Assembly (NCBI RefSeq): GCF_000226095.1
Contig: NC_016477.1
Span: 2,418,001 to 2,482,000, forward strand
DNA: 64,000 nt
Source: Thermothelomyces thermophilus ATCC 42464
Taxonomy: Eukaryota; Ascomycota; Sordariomycetes; Sordariales; Chaetomiaceae
Direction of reading: 5' to 3'
Program-made: the position numbers and the translations under genes
The notes under the pieces: generated by a model
What the model saw: the letters and a program-made list of their open reading frames with translations, nothing else
Told to the model about the DNA's origin: nothing
Databases searched by the model: none
In this document: piece by piece, positions 23,280-44,822 of the stretch
How positions within the stretch are numbered: the stretch's first letter is position 1
How the letters are laid out: every line of letters begins with the position of its first letter

Positions 23280-25409
23280 CTACCTCTTGGCCTTGACCTT
23301 TTTCTTCACGGATTCCACCAGCGTGCTGAGCTCCTGGTCTCCGTCCGCCTTGGCCTTCTTGGAATCTCGCTGATCCCGCTTGCCGTTCGGTGAGTCCTCG
23401 GGCCCGGCCTTGCGCTTTTTCCTGCCCTCTTCCAACAACTTCTTCATTCCCTGCGTCGCCTTGAATTTGGGGTTCGACGGGTCGATGGCAAACTCGTGGT
23501 TTTCAAACACGGCCTTGAACCGAGAATCCTCGACATCCATCTTGAAATCCTCTTGCAGGCCCCCGTTGTTCTCAGCGACCTTCTTGCCCTTCTTCTTCTT
23601 CTTTCCCTTTAGCTTCTCCGCCCGCGCGATCTCCTTCATATCGAAGTGGTCAAGGTGGGCGCCGCCGCCGTTCTCATCCGCCATCAGCAGTTCTAGCTGC
23701 GCCTTTTGTGCAGCATTCTCCGCCTCCTCCTTCTCCCTGGCGGCACGCTTCTTCAGCCGTTCCTCCTTGCGGAGAGCTGATTTGGAAGGTTTGACTGGCT
23801 CGGCTGTGAAGAACGGGTCGTCGAAACCTAGATCTTCTTCGCCTCCTTCCGCCTGCGGTTTCTGAACCGCATTCGGATCGATGCCTTCCCTCTTGGCAAG
23901 GGCCATGGCTCTCTTCCTCTCCTTTCGCTCCCTCTCCTTGCGCTTGTACTTCTCAATGGTTGTTTCTTCAGCTTCGTCCTTCTTCGGCTTCTCGGACAGG
24001 GCAGGGGTGAAGGTGATCTGCATCTCTCCAACGGGCCCGGAATTTGAAGATTTTGGAGCAGGTTCGTCGCTGAGACCCAGCGCTGCGCGCATCTTGCGTC
24101 TCGCGATCTCCTTTTTGCTGAGCGGTGCCCCGTCCTCACCCCGTTCCTCCGCAGGAACATCGTCACCTTCCCCGTCATCGCTCTCGCTATCACTTGCCAA
24201 GTACGCCCTCAAGTCGTTCTCAGCGATGTCCGCGCGGCTCCCACTGAATGCCTTCTTGATGGACTCTTTTCTAGACGCCTCTTCTGGGTGCATATCCCAG
24301 GTCAGCTTCACCTTGGAGTGTTGTAGGGCGTCCGTGGTGAACTCGACGGGCTGATACCCAGCGGGGACACTGTCGCACTCGTCCCTGGGCTCGTCGTCAA
24401 ACGTCACATCGTCCGGAACAAAGCGGAGGTCGAGGAAATTGGAAGACGATAGATATTCACTACCGTCGGTTGCTTCGTAAATTTTGTGCGCCGTATTCTT
24501 GTCCGAACACACTACCACTGCGTAGTAGTATCGCAGCCTCTCGAGCTGATAGGTCCGGAGCGCGTCGCTGTCGAAATCTTGATCGTCGCCCTCTTTCAGC
24601 AGCTCTTTCTTGACCTCCTCGTCCGAATCGCCCGTGCCATCATCATCGTCGTCGCTCTCACTGTCAGATGCCGAGTCGTCTTCATCGTCATCCTCATCGT
24701 CCGATTCCTTGCTCTTCTTAAAGATCTCCTTGGGAGGGCCTTCCAACTCCTCACGCTGCATTCGCTCTTTTCCGAACTCGCTAGGGTAGATGGACACTTT
24801 CTCGATGCGACCACCAGGCGGGACGAAGCTGGAAAACAGCGCCAGGAGGTCTACGGACTTGACATGGTCCCAGTCCATGTTGACAACGGCAAACCGGTTT
24901 GTTACCTCGCCCTCCTCGACCTGCTGCTTCTCTCGGCGGAGATGAATGCCAGGCCGCGTCTCCTCCTCTTCGTCCTCGGCTTCCGGTTCCGCTTCGGATT
25001 CTGAATCCTCGTCCGAATCCGAGTCCGACTCGGAAGAGGAGAAACCGCCGCCACGAGCCGGATCGTATTTCGCGTCGGCCTTCTCTAATTCGCGGCGAAC
25101 AATGTCATCGTCCTCGACCTGCGCATCCTCCCCTGGGTCATGCTCGTCCTCCTCCTCTTCTTCATAGAGTCGCTGCAGCGCCTTCTTCTTGGTGTCTGTC
25201 TTCAGCTTCCGGCCATAGCGATCGACCTTTGCGGTGGCGACGAAATCGGCATCCTTGAGCACGCGCGAGAAACGCTTGTCGATCTTGGTCTTGAGGGTCT
25301 TTTTCGACGGCAGCTTATACCTTGGGTCCGTTTCGAAATTTGCGAAACGGGGGTCGGTAATCTTGGTGACCGGTGCGCTTTCGCGCTTTGTTGTTTTATT
25401 CTTGGCCAT
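23280..25409 (-). CDS. ESF1: Pre-rRNA-processing protein ESF1
   Basis: Single exon, 709 residues, close to the yeast and Pezizomycotina length. Esf1 is a nucleolar component of the small-subunit processome, needed for early 35S pre-rRNA cleavages and 18S formation. Recognisable blocks are the N-terminal DPRFANFETDPRYKLPSKK, the central VVNMDWDHVKSVDLLALF with FVPPGGRIEKVSIYPSEFG, and the C-terminal NUC153 motif (DSRFKAVFENHEFAIDPSNP, about residues 635-655). Long acidic Glu/Asp/Ser tracts (about 90-165 and 230-280) alternate with Lys-rich stretches, and the protein ends VKKKVKAKR, typical of nucleolar factors. No intron is needed. Confidence 0.95.
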   Translation of the reverse strand: MAKNKTTKRESAPVTKITDPRFANFETDPRYKLPSKKTLKTKIDKRFSRVLKDADFVATAKVDRYGRKLKTDTKKKALQRLYEEEEEDEHDPGEDAQVEDDDIVRRELEKADAKYDPARGGGFSSSESDSDSDEDSESEAEPEAEDEEEETRPGIHLRREKQQVEEGEVTNRFAVVNMDWDHVKSVDLLALFSSFVPPGGRIEKVSIYPSEFGKERMQREELEGPPKEIFKKSKESDDEDDDEDDSASDSESDDDDDGTGDSDEEVKKELLKEGDDQDFDSDALRTYQLERLRYYYAVVVCSDKNTAHKIYEATDGSEYLSSSNFLDLRFVPDDVTFDDEPRDECDSVPAGYQPVEFTTDALQHSKVKLTWDMHPEEASRKESIKKAFSGSRADIAENDLRAYLASDSESDDGEGDDVPAEERGEDGAPLSKKEIARRKMRAALGLSDEPAPKSSNSGPVGEMQITFTPALSEKPKKDEAEETTIEKYKRKERERKERKRAMALAKREGIDPNAVQKPQAEGGEEDLGFDDPFFTAEPVKPSKSALRKEERLKKRAAREKEEAENAAQKAQLELLMADENGGGAHLDHFDMKEIARAEKLKGKKKKKGKKVAENNGGLQEDFKMDVEDSRFKAVFENHEFAIDPSNPKFKATQGMKKLLEEGRKKRKAGPEDSPNGKRDQRDSKKAKADGDQELSTLVESVKKKVKAKR

Positions 25410-27962
25410 CTTGGATTAGGACCTGGGAAAATGGGGAGGGTAAAGGAATCGCGAGCCCACAATCGCAGCATCGCAAATCAGGATGTTCTCGAGGAATTTT
25501 TAGTGGGGCTTGGGAATTCTGCCAGGGCGGTGTGCGTTGGTCGTGGGTGCGAAAGCGAGCTCCTTGAAGAACAACACCCCTCCACAGAGGCTGCTGCTAC
25601 CTTGGCTCGTCCCCATCCCACTAGTCCGTATTTACCTATCCCCATCGCCCCGCTACTAAACACAGTACGGGCATGTACGGATTACGGATTACTTTACGCA
25701 GTATCCTCCTCGTTTCAACTCTGCAGCACTTCGATGTCGCCGTTAACGCCAGGACCTTCAACACGCATTCCAATTTCATTCACAAAACGGCAATCGAGTT
25801 GGTATCTGATCTTACCTTGTAAGCCTGAACTAACGCAACCGATTCTTGGACGAGAAAGGGTATTTACCTCCTGCCGTCATGGCCGAAACCAATTCCATAA
25901 GAGCCACGACCCCAGAGCAGCCATCGCTAGTAGGACCATCGATCCCGCTAGCGCTGTTCTGCTTTGTCCCTCGTCCTCTCCTCTCCCGTGCTTTTCATCG
26001 TCAAAGTATGGGTTGAGTCGGACGTAACTTTTCAAGTTCATGGCTATGGCGCAGCAATCAGTGTTGCAGGGCGATTAAGCGTGCAGTGCAAGTCCGCAAA
26101 AAAAAAAAAAAAAAAAAAAAAAACCTGTCGCTGTTAATTGGAAGTTTCTCTTATAATTAACGGCTCAGCAAACATGGAATCACGACTTCTTCATGAGACA
26201 AAGAATGTGCCAGACCGTCACGTCGCAAAGGTCACCTGCCATATTCCAACCCGCCAACTTCCGCTTCCGGCCACCTACGAGCTAGACCAGGCCAATAGGC
26301 GGCGACTGTCTCAAAGGGACTTGCTAGTATGTATGTATAACAGTACTCTACATGGACTACAACCAGACGCGTCGTTGATGATTGCAGTCCCACATATATG
26401 AGGGTATGTATGTATGTATATATTACATACAATATATATTATGTATGGACCAAGGCTGTAACGACCTTTTTTTTCTCTTTCATAGTGGAAGGCCCCGAAT
26501 CCTTGTGCACTTGGCGACTCCAGGGACACGCCTCACACATCCAGCTTCAAGCGCCCTGCATGATGCATCAGATGTTCCTGACTCGGTCAAACACGCTTGG
26601 CAGGGTCAGGAGACTGGGGCGCTGTCCCGTGCGGCCAGAATTAGAAGGGCTCTCCTCCAGCGCAGAACGTTTACGCGCAGAGCCAACGTCGCCCAGGCTT
26701 CATCCTGATTCTCTTCAATCAGCCCCGGCCTCTTTCCCGAGAGACGACCAAAACACAGACAAAAGATCGGGTAGCTCAACGCCACCAGGATCGTCCCAAA
26801 CATAAGGTAGTCAAGGACGCCACAATAGGTGCCGTATAAGCCTGTATGGAAATTCAACTACCCTGTTTTTTTTTATTGCATCTAGGCTCATCGGAAGTAA
26901 TATTCAGTCCTACTATACATTACAGCCCCCCCCCATTCCCCCTCCCCCCTAAAAAAAAAGAAAAACAAAAGACAAATTTTACTTCACTCATTCGTCTTGG
27001 TCTCCCACTACGGGCTTTCCGCCCTGAAGATACTTCTGGTCACCCCATATTCGTCATGATCAGAACATGGCAGGGACCCAATACTGAGCCAGACCAGGGT
27101 TTTGAAATCGCCCCGTTCCCTCTCCGTGCTTCCGCTGGGGGGAGATGCCTCTGTGACAGGAAAGCCCTTCTTCCTTGCAGGTGCGATGCAACGATCACCG
27201 GGAACGCAGTGCAGCCAAGAACTCGGCATCAAATCGATTGTCCCGAGTTACGTTTTGAAACTGTCGAGTTCCAATAGAAAGGTCGAAAAACAACACAGGA
27301 CTCGGAGGAGGACTCGGTTCTTATGTAAGTGAAATCCGCAGTTCTCGCTTGGCATTGGGTCCCTCTTGGCATTTGAATTGTATACTCGGTACGGAGTACA
27401 GGCCGATGGCGTGTTAATAAGAACGAAATGTTTCAGAAGAACGATCAGCTCGTCTTCCTAGTTCTTCTTCCTTTATAGTGGTTTTTTTTTGTGTCTTGTT
27501 AGACTTCGGCCGACTCGACGATCACCCGTTTATTAGGTACCCATCCTCCCCAGTTCCCGTCCGCAGCCCCATTACGGATCTAGGAAGAGCCCTTGCCTCT
27601 CCTACACATACATCATCATCCTCCAGGTCTGATGGGCCAAGTCCAATACGAACCTCAATCTTGACCCAGGGCCAAATCTAACCCAGAACTCCTGACTCCT
27701 GGGTAACCGGTATTTGGGGGAAATGATCATAGGCCGTGCTGTGGGGACGTGGAAGTTCGCTGCCAGGGTATAATTAATATAGGACAGACTCGGAGGGCTA
27801 TTCAATGACTCGGACAACAGAGCATTACACGGCGTATTTATTCGTTTGATATCCCTCACCAAAGGAAAAAGAAGAAAGAAGACTCATTCTGTGAAGGGAG
27901 TCAGAGCAAGAGGGCGAGAGCCAGCCACTGGACCAACCACTCGACCAATCACTCAACGAACC
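25410..27962. other. Large intergenic region with simple repeats
   Basis: About 2.5 kb between the ESF1 start and the TTL-like start. It holds A26 (26098-26123), a TATGTA/TATATA-rich stretch (26403-26452) and a C/A-rich stretch (26927-26970). One minus-strand frame, 26857-26606 (83 residues), has a plausible membrane helix (YLMFGTILVALSYPIFCLCF) followed by a charged tail, but no start context, splice partner or family supports it. The last 140 bp are probably TTL 5' UTR. Confidence 0.4.
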
Positions 27963-29501
27963 ATGCACGCCTTCATCAACCCGTCGGCTCCTTGGCTGAA
28001 AGAGCACATCAAGGCGTTTGTCCGGCAGCACGTGCCAGACGTCGTCTTGGTGGACGATGTGGGAGACCTGCCCGAGGGCGGCGTGGACGCGCTCTTCCAG
28101 TTTTGCGACGGCTGCTCTCTGACGGGGCACTTTGCCGCCGCCAACGCGGCGAAGCGCTCGCTCATCAACGCGTACCCCAACAGCGACGCCCTCGCGCGCA
28201 AGGACCACCTGGCCGCCCTCGTCGGGTACTGGACGGCCAAGCGGCCCGAGAGCATCCTCCGGAAGCACTACCCGCACACGGTGCCGCTGACGCTCGACTA
28301 TGCCGAGTACGTCGACGACGCCCTGATGGCGGCCGACGACCTCTCCCTGCTGTCCTCGCTGGAGCAGAACGAGGCCCGGGAGCCCAAGGACCGCGAGTGG
28401 TGGATCCTCAAGCCCGCGCTGGTCGACTCGGGAATGGGGATCCGGCTGTTCAGCACCGTCCAGGAGCTGGCAAGCCACCTGGAACTGGTCGAGAACGAGA
28501 CTGACGATGAAGAAGAAGAAGATGATGATGATGATGATGACGATGATAACGACGAAGAGGATGAGGAGGAGGCGGAGGCGGAGAAGGATGGGGACGAGCA
28601 AGTAGGGACGACGAAAGCGGACATGACCGAGGAACAGTCCCCGACCCTGACCAGCCCGGGTCTCCAATCCCTCGACGCCCTCTTCACCGTCACCAGCCCG
28701 ACCGCGCCCCCGCCGCCCCTCGTTGTCGACAAGAGCAAGAACAAGAACAAGAGCAAGAGCAAGAGGCCGCGATACGTCTTCAAGGAAGGGGGCCGGATCC
28801 CGTCGGCGCAGATGCGGGCCTTCGCCGCGCAGCGGTACCTGGCTGCGGTGCCGACGCTGGGGGGCGGGCGCAAGTGGCACATCCGCGCGTACGCGCTGGC
28901 CGTGGGGCGGCTCCGGGTGTACGTGGCGCGCGAGATGCTGGTGCTGCTGGCCGCCGAGCCGTACGTGGGCCCCTGGGTCGGGGAGCGGCCCAACATGCGG
29001 GCGGCGCTGACCAACTCGGCCATGAGGGACGAGGACGACCTCGCGGCCGGCCGGACGATGCGGGCTTTCTGGGACCTGGGGGAGGAAGAGGAGGAGGAGG
29101 AGGAGGAGGCGCGGCGGGCGGACTGGAAGACGGACGTGTTCGAGCAGGTCTGCGGCATCACGGCCGAGCTGTTCCGGGCGGCGGCGCACACGATGGCGGA
29201 CAAGTTCGTCACGGTGGACAAGGCCTTCGAGGTGTTCGGGCTCGACTTCCTGCTCGACACGAGCGGGAACGCCTGGCTGCTCGAGGTGAACGAGACGCCC
29301 GCCTTCTACGACAATCCCGTGGCCGGGCCGGTCGCGCTGAGGGTCCTCGAGGCCGTCGTCTACACCGCCATGGAGCACATGGGCCGGGCCCGCGTCGGAG
29401 ATGACCCGAGGCACGCCGAGGTAAAGGGCCGGCTGGTGGAGGTGCTGGATGAGACGGCGAAGCTGGGCAAGAGCAACATCACCGAGATCATTCCCGAGTG
29501 A
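27963..29501 (+). CDS. Tubulin-tyrosine-ligase-like ATP-grasp protein (PBY1-type)
   Basis: Single exon, 512 residues, starting at MHAFINPSAPWL; upstream in-frame codons are Arg/Lys-rich leader. TTL-family enzymes ligate an amino acid to a carboxylate using ATP; the yeast relative Pby1 is linked to P-bodies rather than tubulin. ATP-grasp landmarks are WWILKPALVDSGMGIRLF (about residue 145), KWHIRAYALAV, and the C-terminal FGLDFLLD...LLEVNETPAF, with the Mg-binding Glu/Asn pair. Two acidic inserts interrupt the fold: an Asp/Glu run at about 178-212 and a Glu run near 373. They look like disordered loops. Tubulin specificity is not shown by the sequence. Confidence 0.85.
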   Translation: MHAFINPSAPWLKEHIKAFVRQHVPDVVLVDDVGDLPEGGVDALFQFCDGCSLTGHFAAANAAKRSLINAYPNSDALARKDHLAALVGYWTAKRPESILRKHYPHTVPLTLDYAEYVDDALMAADDLSLLSSLEQNEAREPKDREWWILKPALVDSGMGIRLFSTVQELASHLELVENETDDEEEEDDDDDDDDDNDEEDEEEAEAEKDGDEQVGTTKADMTEEQSPTLTSPGLQSLDALFTVTSPTAPPPPLVVDKSKNKNKSKSKRPRYVFKEGGRIPSAQMRAFAAQRYLAAVPTLGGGRKWHIRAYALAVGRLRVYVAREMLVLLAAEPYVGPWVGERPNMRAALTNSAMRDEDDLAAGRTMRAFWDLGEEEEEEEEEARRADWKTDVFEQVCGITAELFRAAAHTMADKFVTVDKAFEVFGLDFLLDTSGNAWLLEVNETPAFYDNPVAGPVALRVLEAVVYTAMEHMGRARVGDDPRHAEVKGRLVEVLDETAKLGKSNITEIIPE

Positions 29502-30018: not shown

Positions 30019-31251
30019 TCAGAGGCATTGGGAGTACCCTTTCAAGAATTGTCAATTAGTAAATTGATTCAGACTGGCTACTACCCACAGGATTCACAAG
30101 AGAGGGAAGAAAAGAAAAAACCAGAGTTAAATAAGACATCACTTACAATCATTCTGGTACTTGCACGTGTATGGGCTCTCGCACGTTGTCGGCCCCGTGT
30201 AGCCCTGGCCACCGCACTGGCCGTACCGGGGGACGGTTACGCCGCCGCCGCCGCCGCCGTTGTCGCCGCCGCCGGAAGAAGCGCCCTGCAGGGTGAGCAG
30301 GCCCGGGCGGTAGGGGAGGGAGTTGTAGTCGGCGCTGTCGCCGGAGCGGCCCTGGTAGAGCAGCTGGAGGCGGCAGGGGTCGACGGGCATGGTGTGGTTG
30401 GCGTCGATGCGGATGAGGTCGCCGTGGCTGATGTCGCTGGTCCAGGAGGCGCCGCTGTTGGCCGCGCCGGCGAACGGCTGGCTCTCGCTGGCCGCCTGGG
30501 CCGTCCAGGCGCCGTCGAGCCGGCTGGCCGTGTAGGAGCGGAAGTAGCGCCCGCGCGCGCCGATGGACTCGACGATCATCAGATAGGTCGGCGAGCTCTG
30601 GCCGACGACCGTGTATACCTGCACGGCCTCGAACAGGTCGTAGCGGGCGCCGCTCAGGACGACGGTGGCGGCCGAGCCAAAGTTGCCCGGGAAGTTGCCG
30701 AGCGGCATGCTGGCGCGGTAGATCTTGCCGTTGTCGCCGGCGAAGAACAGGTACATGTTCTTGTCGTCGCCGATCAGGGTCTGGTCGATGGGGCCCGTGT
30801 CCGAGTCGGAGATGGAGCCCGAGAAGAGCGGCTGGGGAGCGGACCAGCCGTTGGGGTTGGTCGGATCGGTCGAGGTGCGGTAGGAGAAAGGGGTGGCACC
30901 CCACTGGTAGGCCAGGACCCAGATGTTCTTTGGGGAGAAGTAGAAGAGCGTGGGCGCGACCGCGGCCTGGCTCATCTGGTTCTGGCTGGCCGAGCCCATC
31001 TCGCTCCAGTCCGAGAAGAGGCCGAAGTTCATTGAGCCGTAGGCGTTAGAGTAGTAGCTCCCGTACACAAGGTGCTTGCCGTTGTAAGGCACGTGGGTGA
31101 AGTCCTTGAGGTTAGCCCACCCCGATTTGGGCTGAGCCAACGCGCCCGTCGACGTCCACCGGTAGGACGAGGGGAGGCTGCACGCCGCCTGGGTTGCGGG
31201 TAGGGCCGACGCGAGCAGCGCGACGCTGAGGTCCGTCTTGGTGAGACGCAT
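30019..31251 (-). CDS. Secreted GH62 alpha-L-arabinofuranosidase with CBM1
   Basis: Exons 31251..30147 and 30038..30019 encode 374 residues. The enzyme releases arabinose side chains from arabinoxylan and acts outside the cell. A signal peptide (about 1-22, [20 protein letters not shown]) precedes the five-bladed-propeller domain (about 24-325). Catalytic landmarks are the Asp of [18 protein letters not shown] and the Glu of [20 protein letters not shown] is also conserved. A Gly-rich linker leads to a family 1 cellulose-binding module beginning [15 protein letters not shown]. The first exon runs out at ...YQND; a GTAAGT donor, TACTAAT branch site and TTGAAAG acceptor lead to a 20-bp last exon supplying WYSQCL and stop, which completes the CBM1 fold. 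Without that exon the module would lack its last disulfide cysteine. Confidence 0.94.
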
Positions 31252-32600
31252 GATGGCGGTGTCCTCCTTTTCTCTGCTTCACACGGAGCAGGCACAATCA
31301 GTTGGGTCCGCGCAATGACTATTAATTACTTCGTACTTCGGCGGTGGGAACAGGGGGAGCAGCCGGCCAAGCGCGAGGCGAAATAACTGAAGATCCGTGC
31401 CGGAAGCAGATATGCAGCGAGGACTGGTTCCCCCGATGGGGTTATCCTTTATATAACTATGTGTAACTCACGCCCACGACCCTAGACGTCCTGACCATCG
31501 TGAGAGCTTTGGTGTACATACATACCGGGCACTTGCCATACTAGGCACGGAAGCCATACTATCCGCGCTCCACCGCGTTCTGGACCCAGCTGTGCAGATC
31601 ACAAGATTTCAGGGGCTCGCCTCGGACCTCTGCACTCCAAGTACACGCCAGCACGGGAATGGCTCTTTTATTCCTCCATCAATCACGAAGAGGAGCATCA
31701 GCCACTCTGCAACTACCGATGCTCAGCCATTACATTAGCATCCTGCCAGATGGTCCGTACTTGCGGCAAGTTGAACGCCGGCCTCCGCTCTTTCTTGAAA
31801 GGGGGGAAGGGGTGTATTAGTTCGGGCAACGGAACGGTATCCACAAGGCAAGAGCCTCCTCGGTGTGGGCGCGTTTCCACTGGTGCAGGTCCATGCCAGT
31901 CGCAGAAAAGCGGCCCTTTAGGTTGCCCGAGGTTGCACCACAGCAGAGCCAGCGAGAGCGAGAAGGCGGAACACGCTCGGGCGCTCCGTTGCTTGGCAAG
32001 CTCAAGTGGGCGACACTAGGCGCCCACAGACAGTAGCAACGGCTTACTCTGGCAGGGTTAACAACGGCTAAACCGGGTCGCCGGGACGGGCGTCTCCCGC
32101 TAAGGCGGCTTGGCGTGCCGGGCCAGGCGGAATCTGGGGAAGTATTCGCAAGCGGAACGCTGCAATCACACGCTGTGTGCAAGTTCTCCGACACGGACAT
32201 TTGTATGTAGATGCGCTCCAATGAGAGTACGGCTGCGGCGAGTTCCCGGCTGTGGTGGCGGCTGTTGACTCGGAACTTTTGCAGGTTTCCCCTGTTTGTT
32301 AATAGTCTCTGGTTATTCAACTTGAACTTAGCCTCCGCGGGGAGGGGGTTGAGAACGATGGGCTCCAGGATGAGCCTGCTGAGTTCGTTGACACAGGAAA
32401 GCATTTCGAACTCGTCGCCCATTTTTTGTTTGATGCGCGAGTCTGGGTAATGCCCAATACTGCTGGGCGATTTAGCCTTAAGCCTTCAAGTTGTCTGTTG
32501 CAGAACGAATGTCAGCCTCGAGCAAGTTCTATTACTGGTTTCTCTTCAAGCGTGCAACTTGTGTAGGTATTTGCCTAGCCAACATGCCCTGCACCGCCAG

Positions 32601-36311: not shown

Positions 36312-36808
36312 TAATGGTGTGAGGGTCATGGGTGAGCCGTTTATTAGTATGTACAACCTTAGAGGCAAGCAGGGTGAGGTGTGTGGATGAAATTCCAGTT
36401 CAGGTTTGCCAGGGAAGTCGAGCTGCAACTGCCTGCCCATGAGATGCAACCCGCGTTAGGCGCCCAGATTTGCATACTCTGTTCCCGCAGCTCCCTTCTA
36501 AATTCGTGCAGAACACGTGACGGGATTCTCACGTTCAGCCCTGTCGGGCAGGCACGCTCAAGGTCAAGAAACGCGACATTTGCGAGCGTCGCTCGATACT
36601 GTCCATCTCGTTTTGTGATTTCTCTACATCGGCGTCGTGTCGCATCTGCCGCACGAGCGGTGTCCCCGAGGACCCAACGAAGGCACAGAAACAACTTTTG
36701 CAACTTTGAGACAGCAGCGCGCAAAACAAGCCGAAACACAGTGCGCGCGCCAGCGCCGCACACCTCTCGGCGCTCTCTGCCCACTCTGGTCTGCCCAATT
36801 CTTTTGAG

Positions 36809-37083
36809 ATGGCGGAACTCGGGCTCCCGCAAAATCAGCTAAACACCATTCTCAACGCGCTCGCCTCGATCGATCGCCGCCTTTGCCGCATCGAGACGGC
36901 CCTGAAAATACCCAGCTTCAGCAACGCCAACCTCGCTGGCTCTACTTCAGCTTCTCCCTCGAACCCCGCGGCGACGACCCAGGCGGGGCACATCTCCCAA
37001 GCCCCACCACCACCACCACCACCCCTAACCCCCGGACCAGCAACTGGAGGAGGATCACGAGTACTGCAACAACAACAGCAGCA

Positions 37084-37115
<32 letters not shown>

Positions 37116-37813
37116 AACAGCAACATCCTGCAGGTATCCTCACCAGCCATGCTAACCCCAGCCTCTCAACCGTCAGCATCAGCCCGAGCAATAATAGTAA
37201 CCCCACAGCGACCACGCACCCGACCTTCACCCCGCTGGAGCCGCCGCCGCAGGGCTACACCATCTCGTCGCGGGCCACGATGCAGGACGAGCTGGACGCC
37301 TGGACGCTCCCGCGCGGCTACAGCATGCGGATCGCGGGCGCCAAGGTGACGGGCAAGCGCAAGGTGCGGTGGGTGTGCTTCCGGGGCGGCGAGGCGCGTC
37401 ACCACCGCCGCCCGCCCGTGGACGAGGCGGTGCTGCGGCAGGCCAAGGCCGAGGGCCGGCGCAAGCCGACGACGGACCGCGCCAGCAAGAAGTGCGGCTG
37501 CCTCTTCAAGTTCGAGGTCGTCGAGACGGCCAGGGACAGCGACGTCTGGGTCCTGCACTACCCCAACGAGGAGCACAAGGTGCACAACCACGGGCCCTCG
37601 GACACCACCAGCGACCCCCGCGCCCGGAAGCTGCCCGGCTTCATGGCCGCCGAGGTCGACCGCTGGCTGAGGGAGGGCTGGCTGGTGAGCAAGATCCAGG
37701 AAGAGCTCCGCAGCAGGGGGTTCACCAACGTGCTCAACACCGATCTGTACAATCGGAAACGGCTCTTGAAGAAGGATGGCGGCCGGGAGGGGGGGAATAG
37801 GGGTGGGGGTTGA
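36809..37813 (+). CDS. FAR1/WRKY-GCM1-like zinc-finger protein
   Basis: Single exon, 334 residues. The N-terminal 35 residues form a short helix (LNTILNALASIDRRLCRIET). Then come a Pro run, an unbroken glutamine tract of about 20 residues (near 88-108), and a Ser/Thr/Pro-rich linker. The folded part is about residues 150-320. It has a C-x(~38)-C-G-C-x(~27)-H-x-H arrangement: Cys in VRWVCFRGG (about 190), CGC (about 229-231) and HKVHNHG (about 259-261). That is the FAR1/FLYWCH/WRKY-GCM1 zinc-finger plan used by Mutator-like transposases and host factors derived from them. The tail (DRWLREGWLVSKIQEELRS) resembles a helix-turn-helix. No transposase core follows. A nuclear DNA-binding role is inference. 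Confidence 0.65.
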
Positions 37814-38304: not shown

Positions 38305-41300
38305 TCACCCAGTTCTGAACCGCTTCGGCTTGCTGATGATCTCCGAGTTGCTGTTATCAACAGCACCGACTCGCCTCTTTGAGCCTGCAACGTCTCGGCG
38401 TCCGTGTCCTTGTTTGCGCCCGTGTTTTTCACTTTGGACCTGCCCTTCCCGGGCTACTTCAATACGCGATAATTAGGAGCAGTTAGTCGGTGATACGCAT
38501 GACCTTGATCGAAACCCCTATGCTCGGCCAGCTGGGACCCAACTCACCAGACGCCTTCCCGGATCGGCCTCCACTTCCATGAAGCTCGCCAATGATGAAG
38601 CTTTGGTGTCGGGTGCGCAGCATCTCGGCTAGCTCCGTGTCACGAACCTCTTTACCTAGCCAAGCCCGGAGTTTCCGCTCCAGGTCGGGACCTCCAAACA
38701 TGACCATGACTGGGTACGGGCTCAGGTTAGCGTGGGACGCAGGATTCAAATTAGGCAGGGACACCATTGCGGAACCTACAAGTGACGTCGTAGACCATAT
38801 GCTTTTCCGATCCATCCACCTCGGGGACGGCTACCCAAACCCGCCAGTCCGTATCACAGTCTCTGGGTTCCCGCCGTCGCTCATCTGCACTAGGTATGCG
38901 ACAATGTCTGCGTAGCTCAGGAGGTGCGATAGGTTTCTTTGTCCCTCGAACAATCTTGGCACAAACGAGGTCGTCTCTGCTAAAAAGCCGGACAAGAGCA
39001 TGGGGGGCTTTCGCGGCTTTCAGAGCGTCGGTAGAATCGGCGCCCGCATACGGCGCCAAATCGCTGTAGAAGTCTGGATCCTCGGAGCGAAGCTCTGTTT
39101 TCGTATTGATAATTGATAGTCAGCATTCCGAAAGCGAAGCAACGATGGGAGGGAAACACTAAACTGGAAATGTCAAACACCCGGTTGAGCAAGACAATCT
39201 TATTCTCTTCTATGCCCCTGTTTTGTGGGATCTCGCCAATCACGCGCCCAACCTTGAGGGCTTCGTGGTTCATCAGCGTCTGTTGCCAATGAAGATGGGC
39301 GTGCTTGAACTCGTCGGTCGCGTCACGGCCAGCGTATTGGTACAGCATCTGAGCGCCGCCCGGGTGGGAGTGGAGGTAGCCTGATGAAGTCGATCAGCCC
39401 GTTCCGGTCAAGCCGAGGAACTGGAAGAAGAAGGATGGTCAATGGGTTGTACTTACGCCCAAGATCATACACATAGCCATCGATGGCACAATACATGCCG
39501 GTTTGAGGATAGATGTATCTTCCAAGCTCGCGAAGAGTGAACGTTCGATGGGTCGACGCGGTAATAGCCGCCTTGGTCTGCCTAAGAAAGCCGCACTTGT
39601 ACGGACTCAAACGCGAAAGGAGGCTTGACACATCTTGCCCATCCAGTGCTTCTCTCGGGGACTTCTTCCCTCTCGCAAGCGCAACAAGTGCTTCTTTCTC
39701 TGCCTCGGAGTTAAAGGGAAAAGCTGCTAAACAATCAACGGACGAGTTCGACTGCGCTCAACGGCAACCGGGAAGGACAGACCTGTGATGTCGTAGACAA
39801 AATTTCCAATAACGCACCACAATGCTCGGCCCTCTCGTCCGTCGTGTTCAAACACCTCTTGGGGGTGTTTACAAGTTAAGAGCTTCCCGAGCGGTTTGCG
39901 ACGGTCGACTTGGAGCGCCTTCGCGAGCTTCCGGGAGACTATGACACGGCCCAGCTCCGTCGACTCGAAGACCGGCTCAGTGTCAACCCTGGCCTTGAAA
40001 CCTGGGAGGGCTGGTTTGGTTAGCTAGCAGGCCCGGAGGACTGAAAACGTGAGTAAACTCACCGCCGACGTCGACCACATCATAGCCTCCCATATCGTCA
40101 GGTAGCAAAGCTAGACTTGTCCCTGTCGGATCATTCAAGGTGGCATCCCCTACTTCCGATACGGTAAAGTATCTCGTTGGCGCCGGCGCATGGAGAGATC
40201 CAAGACCATGCTTCTTTCGCCCTCCAACTTGTGCAGCCATCGCGTGTGCTTGCCTCTGGCTTGGGTGCTCTGACGGCCCGAAAGCCGGCCCAGGCGCTCC
40301 CTGCTGCACCGTTGGATACCCTGTCCAGGGAACATACACCGCATACTCGTTCTTCTTCATCAGGTTCCCGGTATACTCGGGAAACTTGAAGCTCCAATCC
40401 AACCACTCCTCATCCATCTTTTCGGACGCGTCCTGCTGAAACAGCGACTGCAGCTCCCGCTCCAGCTCCATCGAGAGAGGCATCGGCAGCGGCTCAACAG
40501 CCTCCCGCTCCTGCATGATCTCGAGCGCACTCTCCAGCAGCCACAGTCGGTTGCTCTGATACCTTACAACCTCCCCGTTCTCATCCTTCTCCGTGTGGCC
40601 CTCCAGATGCCTGTCGGGCAAGTGGTACAGCCTCCCGAGCTCCCTCCAAACCGTCCGCGTCGGCGCGAACCGCCACGCGCCCTCCCCGCCCGCGAGCGCC
40701 GTCTGGCTGGGAAACCAGGCGTTTGCAACCTCGCGCGAGTCATGTTCGTAGCCGGCGCCGCGGCGCGCTGGCAGCGCGGCCTGCATCATGAGCGCCAGCA
40801 CAGCAAACAACCAGTCGCGGCGCGGGAGACGCGCGTCGATCCCATCGCGGGCCAGGTGACAGTTGAGCCAGCAATCCATGCCGCTGACCGCGACGTGAGC
40901 CTCTCGCTCCGCGGCCAGCTCGTCTGCGTCGGTGAGCCGGCGGAGTGGCTGCGCGGCGGCGGCAAAGCGCGCGACCACGGCGCGCGCCGCCACGTTGGAA
41001 TAGGGCGTCAGCTTCCACAAGCGGTGCTCGTGGTTGTACCAGGGGCGGAGGCGGTTCCAGGCGAGCCGACGGGCTTGGAGATCGGCGAGGGTTGCGTGAA
41101 TGGACGGCATGAGGTGTGCGTGCTCGGCGGAGGTCGCATTGGCGAGGGGTTCTGCACGGTGGGCTTCGAGGTAGAAGCCGCGGAAGATGATGGGGGCGGA
41201 GAAGAGGCGGGGTGCTTGGAAGGCAGCAAGGCCATACTTTTGGACGACCGTCGTGTAGAAGGACTCGAGGAGGTGAGAGGAGTACCATGCGGCTGGCAGA

Positions 41301-43045
41301 GGTGAGGCATCGGTGACGCGGCCGATCGCGTCGAGGGGCATATTGTTGACAGATGCTACCGGGTTGATAGCAGGGAGCGAGGGGAACTCTTTCACGGTCA
41401 TGCCGTATTTGTAGCCGCTTTTGCCAGCGGTGTCAATCATGGGGGCTTCTAGAATATCGCCCCCGAAAAAGCTCTTGATTGCAGAAACACCTAGCTCACG
41501 GTCCCTAATACGCATATGTCAGAGCTGGAAATCCTCTTATAGGTCCTTACTAGCGCTGGTCCACGGTATTCGGACCGAAGACACTCCCAATGTTTCCGAG
41601 GAGGTCATCAAGAACGCGCCACGGGGTGAGGATCTAGGAAGCCGCCGAGACACTCACCACTCCTGGTCATAGCACTATTTATGTGAACAATTTTGCGTTA
41701 GCTTCTCGCCGGGGACCAGGCCACCAACGTGAACATGCATCCAGTTAAACGAGACGGATCCTCGAAACTCACTGGTTCGTCTGGAGGATAGATTTGATCG
41801 AGATGCCGAGCCATGTTGATAGCATGCTGGTGTCCATGTAAATAGTCATTGGTTAGCCCGCCAGCTTGAACCTTGCTTCCTCCTTCTGCTGGCTGAACGA
41901 GCCACTTGCCATTAGTTCATGCAGCATCTAAGCAATGGAATCAGCTACGCTTCTGCCGCTGGTATAGCAAGAAAGAGACAACCTACTGTCATCGCTAACG
42001 ACCATCTCGCATGGGATCGTTCCGCCAAGGTCGACTTCGGATCCAGCAGAACTCGCAGGGATGCCACATGAATGTATATCGTGATGAATGGCGGTTTTCT
42101 CTGAGCGGCCGGGGTATCCTCATCGGGCGCCTCCCCATCGTTCCAATGCTTGATTGTGCGCCCGAAGTAGTCGCCGTTGTCCGCAGCATCGTGGGGATGG
42201 TACCCGTCATCCATAAAGGTCCAAACAAGTTTCGGCGCGAGCTGCTTCGCGATGATCTTGAGCGTCTTCTCCGCATCATAGTTCCTGCTCCGAGCGGGAA
42301 TCCTCCACGGCTTTCGATTCGGCCCCAGCTGACAGGTTGGATCCCCTAGCTCAGCCCCAGACGGCTCTGCCTCGAACCACTCGACCCGTTCTTCGTGGAC
42401 CATATGATTCAACCATGGGCCATCTGCCATACAGAGCAGCCAGCGGTTGGTGAGTTCCAGCGCCACGCGAAGCTCGGTCCAAATCTTGGGCACGTCGACG
42501 CTCCAGACATCCGATACGTTGATACCGGGTAGAGCTTCGCGGACCAACTTCCCGTCTACGATTGGAAGGCGGAAGTCATACCATTTGCTCTTTGCAAAGA
42601 CCGGATGCCAACCCCCCTCATCAACTCTCACTCCGGGTCCGGCGTCCAGATAGTATGGCGTAACCGGATCCATTTGCCGATGGCCCCCCGGTCGTCCGCC
42701 CGCCAAATGCTCACGGAGGACACCCATCTCCCATGTCGTCAGCCCCCCGTTTAACATTATCTGAGATGCCTCGGTGGAAAACAGCATGTCGAGCTCATGG
42801 CCTGGGGGAATTGGATACGGCGGCAATTGCTCGAAGACCGTGCTCTCCTCGGCGAAGTAGGTTGGATGGAGCGAGGGAAAGAGAGGGGCGAATCCAGAAT
42901 GAGCGACGGTATCTCCCGTAATGTTGAGCACATTGCGCATCTCGCCGCCATATTTGCGGAGCCATGGTGACCGCGGTGGCTGTGACGTCTGGGACGCAGT
43001 TGAGAAGATTTGGCTAGTCATTGTTTGACGGGGAAGATGTTCCAA
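38305..43045 (-). CDS. Multidomain protein: zincin-like HExxH plus cytochrome-b5-like modules
   Basis: Eleven exons fit in phase: 43045..41987, 41927..41910, 41826..41773, 41674..41658, 41504..40063, 40001..39783, 39723..39457, 39380..39165, 39094..38780, 38709..38548, 38456..38305; 1306 residues. At 356-367 the small exons assemble HELMHAINMARH after a hydrophobic strand (WSLAMTML), a zincin-like metal site; EWDRELG (from about 382) could supply a third ligand. The C-terminal third has cytochrome-b5-like modules. The clearest (about 1005-1075) has YCAIDGYVYDLG, HPGG (1031-1034), YAGRDATDEF and a later His. Others are LWCVIGNFVYDITAF, RVFDISKLRSEDPDFYSDL and a last one with MVYDVT and GGPDLERKLRAWLG; these lack HPGG. 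A basic tail ends KPKRFRTG. One intron is GC-AG (GCAAGT, 41909-41827), with exons of 17 and 18 bp. The exon 8/9 border is less sure. Start could be 43021. Function unknown. Confidence 0.72.
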
Positions 43046-43535: not shown

Positions 43536-44321
43536 TCAGGCCGAGCTGGGTTCGGGGGGCTTCTGAGCGAACCAGAAATAGTAGTAAAAGTATCGATGAA
43601 CCTTCATATCATCCAGCGCTTTCCTCGCCTCAGCCAGAGTCACCTGGCTTTCTACCTGTGACATTCCTAAAGCAGTGAATGGCCTGGGGGACAGGGCGGG
43701 CATCAGCTCCAGCACCGCCGTCTTCTGGTAGAGGCCAACGAGGCGCAGGGTCTCGTTTCGAACCCAGCTGCGATTGGTTTACTTATCGGTGCCCGTCCCA
43801 ACATCGAGAATCTTGTGCACGTTGTCGCCAATGGGTGTATAGAATAACGCGCCGTCGCACAGCTCAAGCATCATGGCATGCTTCATGTCCTCGCGATTGA
43901 GCTCTTCCTCGTTGTTGGGAATTGGATAGCAGCCATTCCTGAAGTGCTGATATCGGCGGCCGTTCTCAATGGTGTGAGCGTAGACGGACGACGTGACGCT
44001 GATCGGCCTAGCCGACGTCGTCTCGAAGTCGTCGGCAGGGACAGACTCGCTTTTATCGTGGACGTCGTCAGGCTCCCCAGAAGGGGCCATCATGCTGCTG
44101 GGGTTGCCGAGGTTCTGCTGATGGTGATCATCGACGTCGCGGAGTACAGCATTGGGATGGGGTTTACGATCGGAACCTGGTGCGGACTGCACCGGCGAAG
44201 AGCTCTTGTAGCGGCACGTGCTCACGCTTGCGCGGGGCGTCTCGATGGTTGTGTCGGCGGCAGCGTTCTCGTTCAATCTTTTGCTTTCAAAATCCGGCGG
44301 CGGGCTCCCGCTCTCGCTCAT
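43536..44321 (-). pseudogene. LaeA-like methyltransferase lacking its central core
   Basis: The N-terminal part starts at ATG 44321 with a Ser/Pro-rich acidic leader. It then reads SSVYAHTIENGRRYQHF, NREDMKHAMMLELCDGALF and motif I, HKILDVGTGT. This is the pattern of fungal LaeA-like (TAM-type) methyltransferases, several of which regulate or build secondary metabolites. Four codons later there is a stop. In the same frame immediately after it comes the family's C-terminal end: ETLRLVGLYQKTAVLELMPA, then HRYFYYYFWFAQKP, stop at 43536. About 190-200 residues that normally carry motifs II and III and the rest of the SAM fold are absent. This looks like an internal deletion with a stop at the join, so methyltransferase activity is not expected. 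A splice that would rescue it is not visible. Confidence 0.75.
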
Positions 44322-44822
44322 GGCCGACCATGCAACAGAGGTGTCGCGAGACGGTATATGCTTGACAGAACGGATCTGTCTGAAAGCATATAATGGTAAG
44401 TTGAAACATGAATGGTTCCTTCCCCCCAGTGTCAAATAAACGACCGACCCAATCGAGATGGAGAGTCCGTACATGCACTGCAATATTGTTGTGTAAGCAG
44501 CATGCCTTCCCGTCCCGTGTCGGGCTAAACCCGCATCAGGGAACACTTTCCTCTCAACCACGCACGTAGTTCCCAATTTTGGGAAAAATGTACGCCTGCG
44601 AACAGCAGCTTTGTGCCAGTTCCGCAAGCCCATCCACATGCGCCACCTTCCAATGCCACCTCGGGTACCTAGAAGCACAATGGAGTGCACCGAGGGCCCA
44701 GTGGGTGAGAGAACAAATGGAACCCTGCAACCACAGGATGGAGTCGATTCCGACCAACCTAGGCGAAGTGCTAATCTTGTGCTTCCTGTTCGTCGAAGAC
44801 GAGCGCCGCCGACCCGACCTGA

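Follow-up and report, generated by a model that had tools for sequence, protein, structure and literature searches.

An HExxH-containing orphan region joined to serial cytochrome-b5-like modules in a spliced reading frame of Thermothelomyces thermophilus

Cytochrome-b5 domains that are fused to other protein domains usually feed electrons to their partners, as in nitrate reductase, flavocytochrome b2, desaturases and fatty acid 2-hydroxylase. In gluzincins, the HExxH motif is followed, after about 18–20 residues, by a Glu and then by an acidic residue four positions further on. Here, we analyzed a locus of Thermothelomyces thermophilus ATCC 42464 in a window of 64,000 nucleotides (the whole stretch of DNA that was analyzed), where a region carrying an HExxH motif appears to be joined to several modules of the cytochrome-b5 type. 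Our preferred reading, to which we assign a probability of roughly 0.4, is that a zincin-like metal hydrolase and a haem-capable b5 array with a regulatory role are combined in a single intracellular protein.

The computed splice model yields a reading frame of 1298 amino acids in 11 exons on the minus strand (43021-38305), which is stop-free once spliced and which starts at the first ATG of the open frame of exon 1. This bears out the fused, in-phase 11-exon gene of the original prediction, and the sequence likewise agrees with the proposal that an N-terminal part of ~860 residues is joined to b5-like modules. The stretch 43021-38305 probably represents a genuine gene, whose layout is distinctive, and the model comprises the following elements.

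38305..43021, minus strand: whole gene, spliced frame from the ATG at 43021 to the stop codon at 38307-38305
41987..43021, minus strand: exon 1, 1035 nt, open frame; residues 1-345, orphan N-terminal part
41910..41927, minus strand: exon 2, 18 nt, encoding MLHELM; followed by a GC donor (GCAAGT)
41773..41826, minus strand: exon 3, 54 nt, encoding HAINMARHLDQIYPPDEP; its first codon is the second His of HExxH
41658..41674, minus strand: exon 4, 17 nt, encoding CYDQE(W); E374 is a candidate third metal ligand
40063..41504, minus strand: exon 5, 1442 nt; residues 375-855 (DRELG...FFGG), comprising an orphan region and the linker that leads to the b5 array
39783-40001, minus strand: exon 6 of the splice model
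39457-39723, minus strand: exon 7 of the splice model
39165-39380, minus strand: exon 8 of the splice model
38780-39094, minus strand: exon 9 of the splice model
38548-38709, minus strand: exon 10 of the splice model
38305..38456, minus strand: exon 11, basic tail

The long exons 1 (1035 nt) and 5 (1442 nt), in which the third-position GC content was 0.66 and 0.74, respectively, thus supply nearly all of the N-terminal part, and the three small exons between them (18, 54 and 17 nt) assemble TMLHELMHAINMARHLDQIYPPDEPCYDQEWDRELG.

Within the C-terminal part, four stretches were delimited, the last of them by eye.

39551..39879, minus strand: b5-like module 1, about residues 897-986, split by intron 6; without HPGG
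39241..39529, minus strand: b5 module 2, residues 994-1064, split by intron 7; HPGG at H1023, and H1046
38958..39207, minus strand: b5-like module 3, about residues 1076-1135, split by intron 8; without HPGG
38585..38852, minus strand: possible b5-like module 4, about residues 1171-1236, split by intron 9

A Pfam search with the full protein found Cyt-b5 at three stretches. Module 2 matched the family (PF00173) with an E-value of 2.5e-16 and 59.9 bits against a curated cut-off of 23.7; the matches of module 1 (E 0.0015, 18.9 bits, profile positions 2-29 of 74) and module 3 (E 0.0063, 16.9 bits) lay below that cut-off, and module 4 had no Pfam match. We also scored modules 1, 3 and 4 with a profile built from seven of the eight b5 loci fetched from the same genome (L004, which has an internal stop, was excluded, and module 2 was not included), and obtained 14.0, 10.9 and 2.1 bits, respectively. 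These scores were reached by 0/200 shuffled sequences for module 1, 0/200 for module 3 and 3/200 for module 4, and the matches extended over ~20 residues in module 1 and nine in module 4. From the Pfam scores, the shuffle counts and the short match of module 4, we conclude that three b5 modules are supported and that the fourth is only suggestive, so that the several b5-like modules originally claimed hold for modules 1–3. The additional claim that a single module keeps HPGG proved right: the tetrapeptide occurs once in the whole protein, at H1023 in module 2, and is absent from modules 1, 3 and 4. In the alignment, the second His of module 2 (H1046, 23 residues after H1023) occupies the axial-ligand position of the family. 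Judged by these residues, module 2 alone looks able to hold haem.

When the C-terminal part was compared with the genome, at least 13 matches were obtained, five of which were the gene itself and at least eight of which lay elsewhere. All of the latter aligned with the module 2 stretch only, and the comparison consequently revealed no further copy of the array in the genome. One of these other b5 genes, that of locus L008, also gave a weak match to module 1 (E 0.093), which was recorded at locus L025 (G000:C5:3104263-3104397). Beyond the modules, the protein ends in a basic tail, with 15 Lys or Arg versus five Asp or Glu among the last 58 residues.

The splice signals that underlie the model are of uneven quality. 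Nine of the 10 introns have GT-AG ends, and intron 2 has GC-AG ends with an otherwise strong donor; a branch-like CTRAY site is present in nine of the 10 introns, intron 6 being the one without it. Weak donors occur in intron 6 (GTCTGT) and intron 8 (GTTTAG). For intron 8, eight donor/acceptor pairs keep the frame open and shift the start of module 3 by at most about 15 residues, and for intron 9 an open frame was obtained with 5/18 pairs. Among six acceptors tried for intron 10, three keep the C-terminal basic tail and three replace it, which makes this tail the least certain part of the protein.

Two adjacent genes, or a mistaken splice model, would abolish the fusion. If intron 5, which joins the N-terminal part to the b5 array, were not spliced, the frame of exon 5 would reach a stop codon just past 39983, and the weak donors of introns 6 and 8 and the open alternatives for introns 8, 9 and 10 leave room for errors in the model. 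However, intron 5 carries the signals GTGAGT, CTAAC and CAG, and the spliced protein contains no in-frame Met between residues 846 and 1005 with which a b5 gene could start; a separate b5 gene would therefore have to begin within exon 5, in the middle of module 2 or in an unseen upstream exon. Because of this absence of Met, the sequence favours one gene rather than two, and we regard the absence of a fusion as very improbable.

The surroundings of the gene resemble an ordinary fungal chromosome. A Pfam search with eight other long frames of the window found clear domains in three, weak matches only in one and none in four. The clear cases are a protein of the GH62 arabinofuranosidase family that carries a CBM1 at its C-terminus (30139-31278, minus strand), a tubulin-tyrosine ligase domain (27783-29501) and an ESF1 domain (23280-25415). 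A frame with a long poly-Q run (36710-37813, plus strand) gave Pfam matches below the cut-off to TFIIA (0.0023) and EPL1 (0.04), and its C-terminal part, judged by eye, presumably resembles a DNA-binding domain of the FAR1/MULE type. Directly upstream of the gene lies a frame that ends in ...ILDVGTGTDK (43779-44822, minus strand); this piece alone had no Pfam match, and from its appearance we take it to resemble the beginning of a gene for a LaeA-like methyltransferase.

We then consider the N-terminal part, for which the searches returned no family. Cyt-b5 was the sole Pfam family found in the full protein, and the N-terminal part had no match in Pfam or PADLOC; residues 1-780 matched nothing in NCBIfam, and exon 1 had no match in Pfam, PADLOC or PHROGs. 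Around the motif, two PHROG families of unknown function were matched with E-values of 0.022 and 0.47. Among the sequences of the PDB, the full protein was matched in its b5 part only (E up to 1), the motif stretch and exon 5 (residues 376-855) matched nothing (E up to 10), and exon 1 had a single match at chance level (E 0.94). A zincin family match was thus found neither in Pfam, nor in NCBIfam (residues 1-780), nor among the PDB sequences. In the same genome, queries of 856 and 94 amino acids (E up to 10) recovered only the gene itself as a relative of the N-terminal part. In viral and prokaryotic collections, short patterns, which reach close relatives only, gave 0, 5, 18 and 162 matches and no confirmed relatives, as is expected for a fungal gene. 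AlphaFold predictions of single exons that do not contain the motif had mean pLDDT values of 33.9 (exon 5, residues 376-855) and 33.4 (exon 1). The maximum mean hydropathy over 19 residues in the whole protein was 1.17, which indicates no obvious membrane span.

The motif itself depends on the choice of splice sites. Its region contains five strong donors, of which the favoured chain uses four to make TMLHELMHAINMARH. When strong donors only were allowed, 17 splice chains remained open, and HExxH was present in 3/17 and absent from 14/17; skipping of exon 2 keeps the frame and removes His348 and Glu349, so that the motif is lost. The chance that a six-codon exon would place a His and a Glu at the two places ahead of the first His of exon 3 is ~0.0026 (calculated from composition and uncorrected for the number of chains), and this value favours the inclusion of exon 2. 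The assembly of the motif from tiny exons, as had been proposed, stands for the favoured chain, in which the exons of 18 and 54 nt supply HELMH.

In this chain, HELMH spans residues 348-352, is preceded by the hydrophobic FITIYIHV of exon 1 and is followed downstream by E374 and E378 within CYDQEWDRELG; the HExxH in a hydrophobic context with a downstream EWDRELG described in the original prediction was accordingly recovered. H352 is separated from E368, E374 and E378 by 15, 21 and 25 residues, respectively, and E374 and E378 have three residues between them, an arrangement close to the gluzincin spacing given above; by this analogy, they would be reasonable candidates for the third ligand. 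It is plausible that HExxH forms a metal site, in either a hydrolase or a pseudo-protease, and the N-terminal part is possibly a new zincin-like family.

A metzincin reading (HExxHxxGxxH) was also considered. The stretch HELMHAINMARH lacks the Gly, and its third His (H359) lies one place late; metzincin identity was rejected on these grounds.

The chief rival to a zincin-like hydrolase is that HELMH arose by chance or has decayed, that the N-terminal part is non-catalytic and that the protein works through its b5 array, which would bind haem or another ligand or serve as a scaffold. When the protein was shuffled 10,000 times, a bare HExxH arose in 11.6% of the sequences, and HExxH by itself is thus not above chance. 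A published survey of TrEMBL likewise reports no excess of HExxH outside Pfam domains, the observed number being slightly below the expected one (43395 versus 49242; PMC3650047). The absence of a zincin family match in Pfam and NCBIfam points in the same direction. On the other hand, the motif flanked by hydrophobic residues and followed by a small one was found in 0.18% of shuffles, a rarer event for a pattern that was picked after the motif had been seen, and the six-codon exon supplies its His and Glu at exactly the required distance from the His that begins exon 3. We judge an inert motif to be a serious possibility at distinctly less than even odds.

In third place is a reading in which module 2 passes electrons to the N-terminal domain, which would act as a non-haem metal oxidoreductase or oxygenase. 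Both haem-ligand positions are kept in module 2, and the N-terminal part contains two ExxH motifs (E349LMH352 and E502HAH505), which may be due to chance, since a third ExxH (E334) is also present there. However, no oxidoreductase family was matched in Pfam or NCBIfam, and only one module looks electron-carrying; we therefore consider an electron-fed metal enzyme unlikely.

For the preferred reading, a zincin-like hydrolase with a regulatory b5 array, we infer the N-terminal fold, the metal, the activity, the cell location and the regulation as follows. The large N-terminal domain would belong to a family that is undescribed and probably zincin-like. Its putative metal ligands would be H348, H352 and one downstream Glu, either E374 or E378, with E349 as the putative general base. 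In module 2, H1023 and H1046 would bind haem; haem binding would have been lost in the other modules, which may have a structural or binding role. The array would most likely sense haem, redox state, a bound ligand or a partner and position or regulate the hydrolase accordingly. The protein may be cytosolic or nuclear, and the basic tail would suit a nuclear location, depending on the last acceptor. A more specific version appears doubtful to us: here, the intracellular enzyme would be a metallohydrolase from a new zincin family outside Pfam, fused to a b5 array with one haem module, and haem or redox state would gate proteolysis.

Finally, we compared the locus with known systems. Module 2 resembles PF00173 in its score above the curated cut-off, its HPGG and its second His, and modules 1 and 3 resemble it weakly; the locus differs from this family in that the modules form a serial array and HPGG is kept in one of them only. 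With zincins of the gluzincin type (Pfam clan Peptidase_MA), the protein shares an HExxH among hydrophobic residues and, downstream of it, acidic residues whose spacing is plausible, whereas its N-terminal part has no family match. In the open-access literature, as far as titles and the openings of abstracts go, the fusion appears in none of the matches listed, which fits the claim that no enzyme with such a layout has been described. The b5 modules are of a known kind, no family for the N-terminal part is present in the libraries searched, and the combination of an orphan domain with a b5 array is unusual. Even with an inert motif, an orphan domain of ~860 residues followed by serial b5 modules, of which one looks live, would be an unexplained layout. 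If the metal site is real, the locus would encode a metallopeptidase family that none of the curated libraries we searched contains, and it would be an uncommon example of a hydrolase linked to a haem module; to our knowledge, the known b5 fusions feed redox enzymes.
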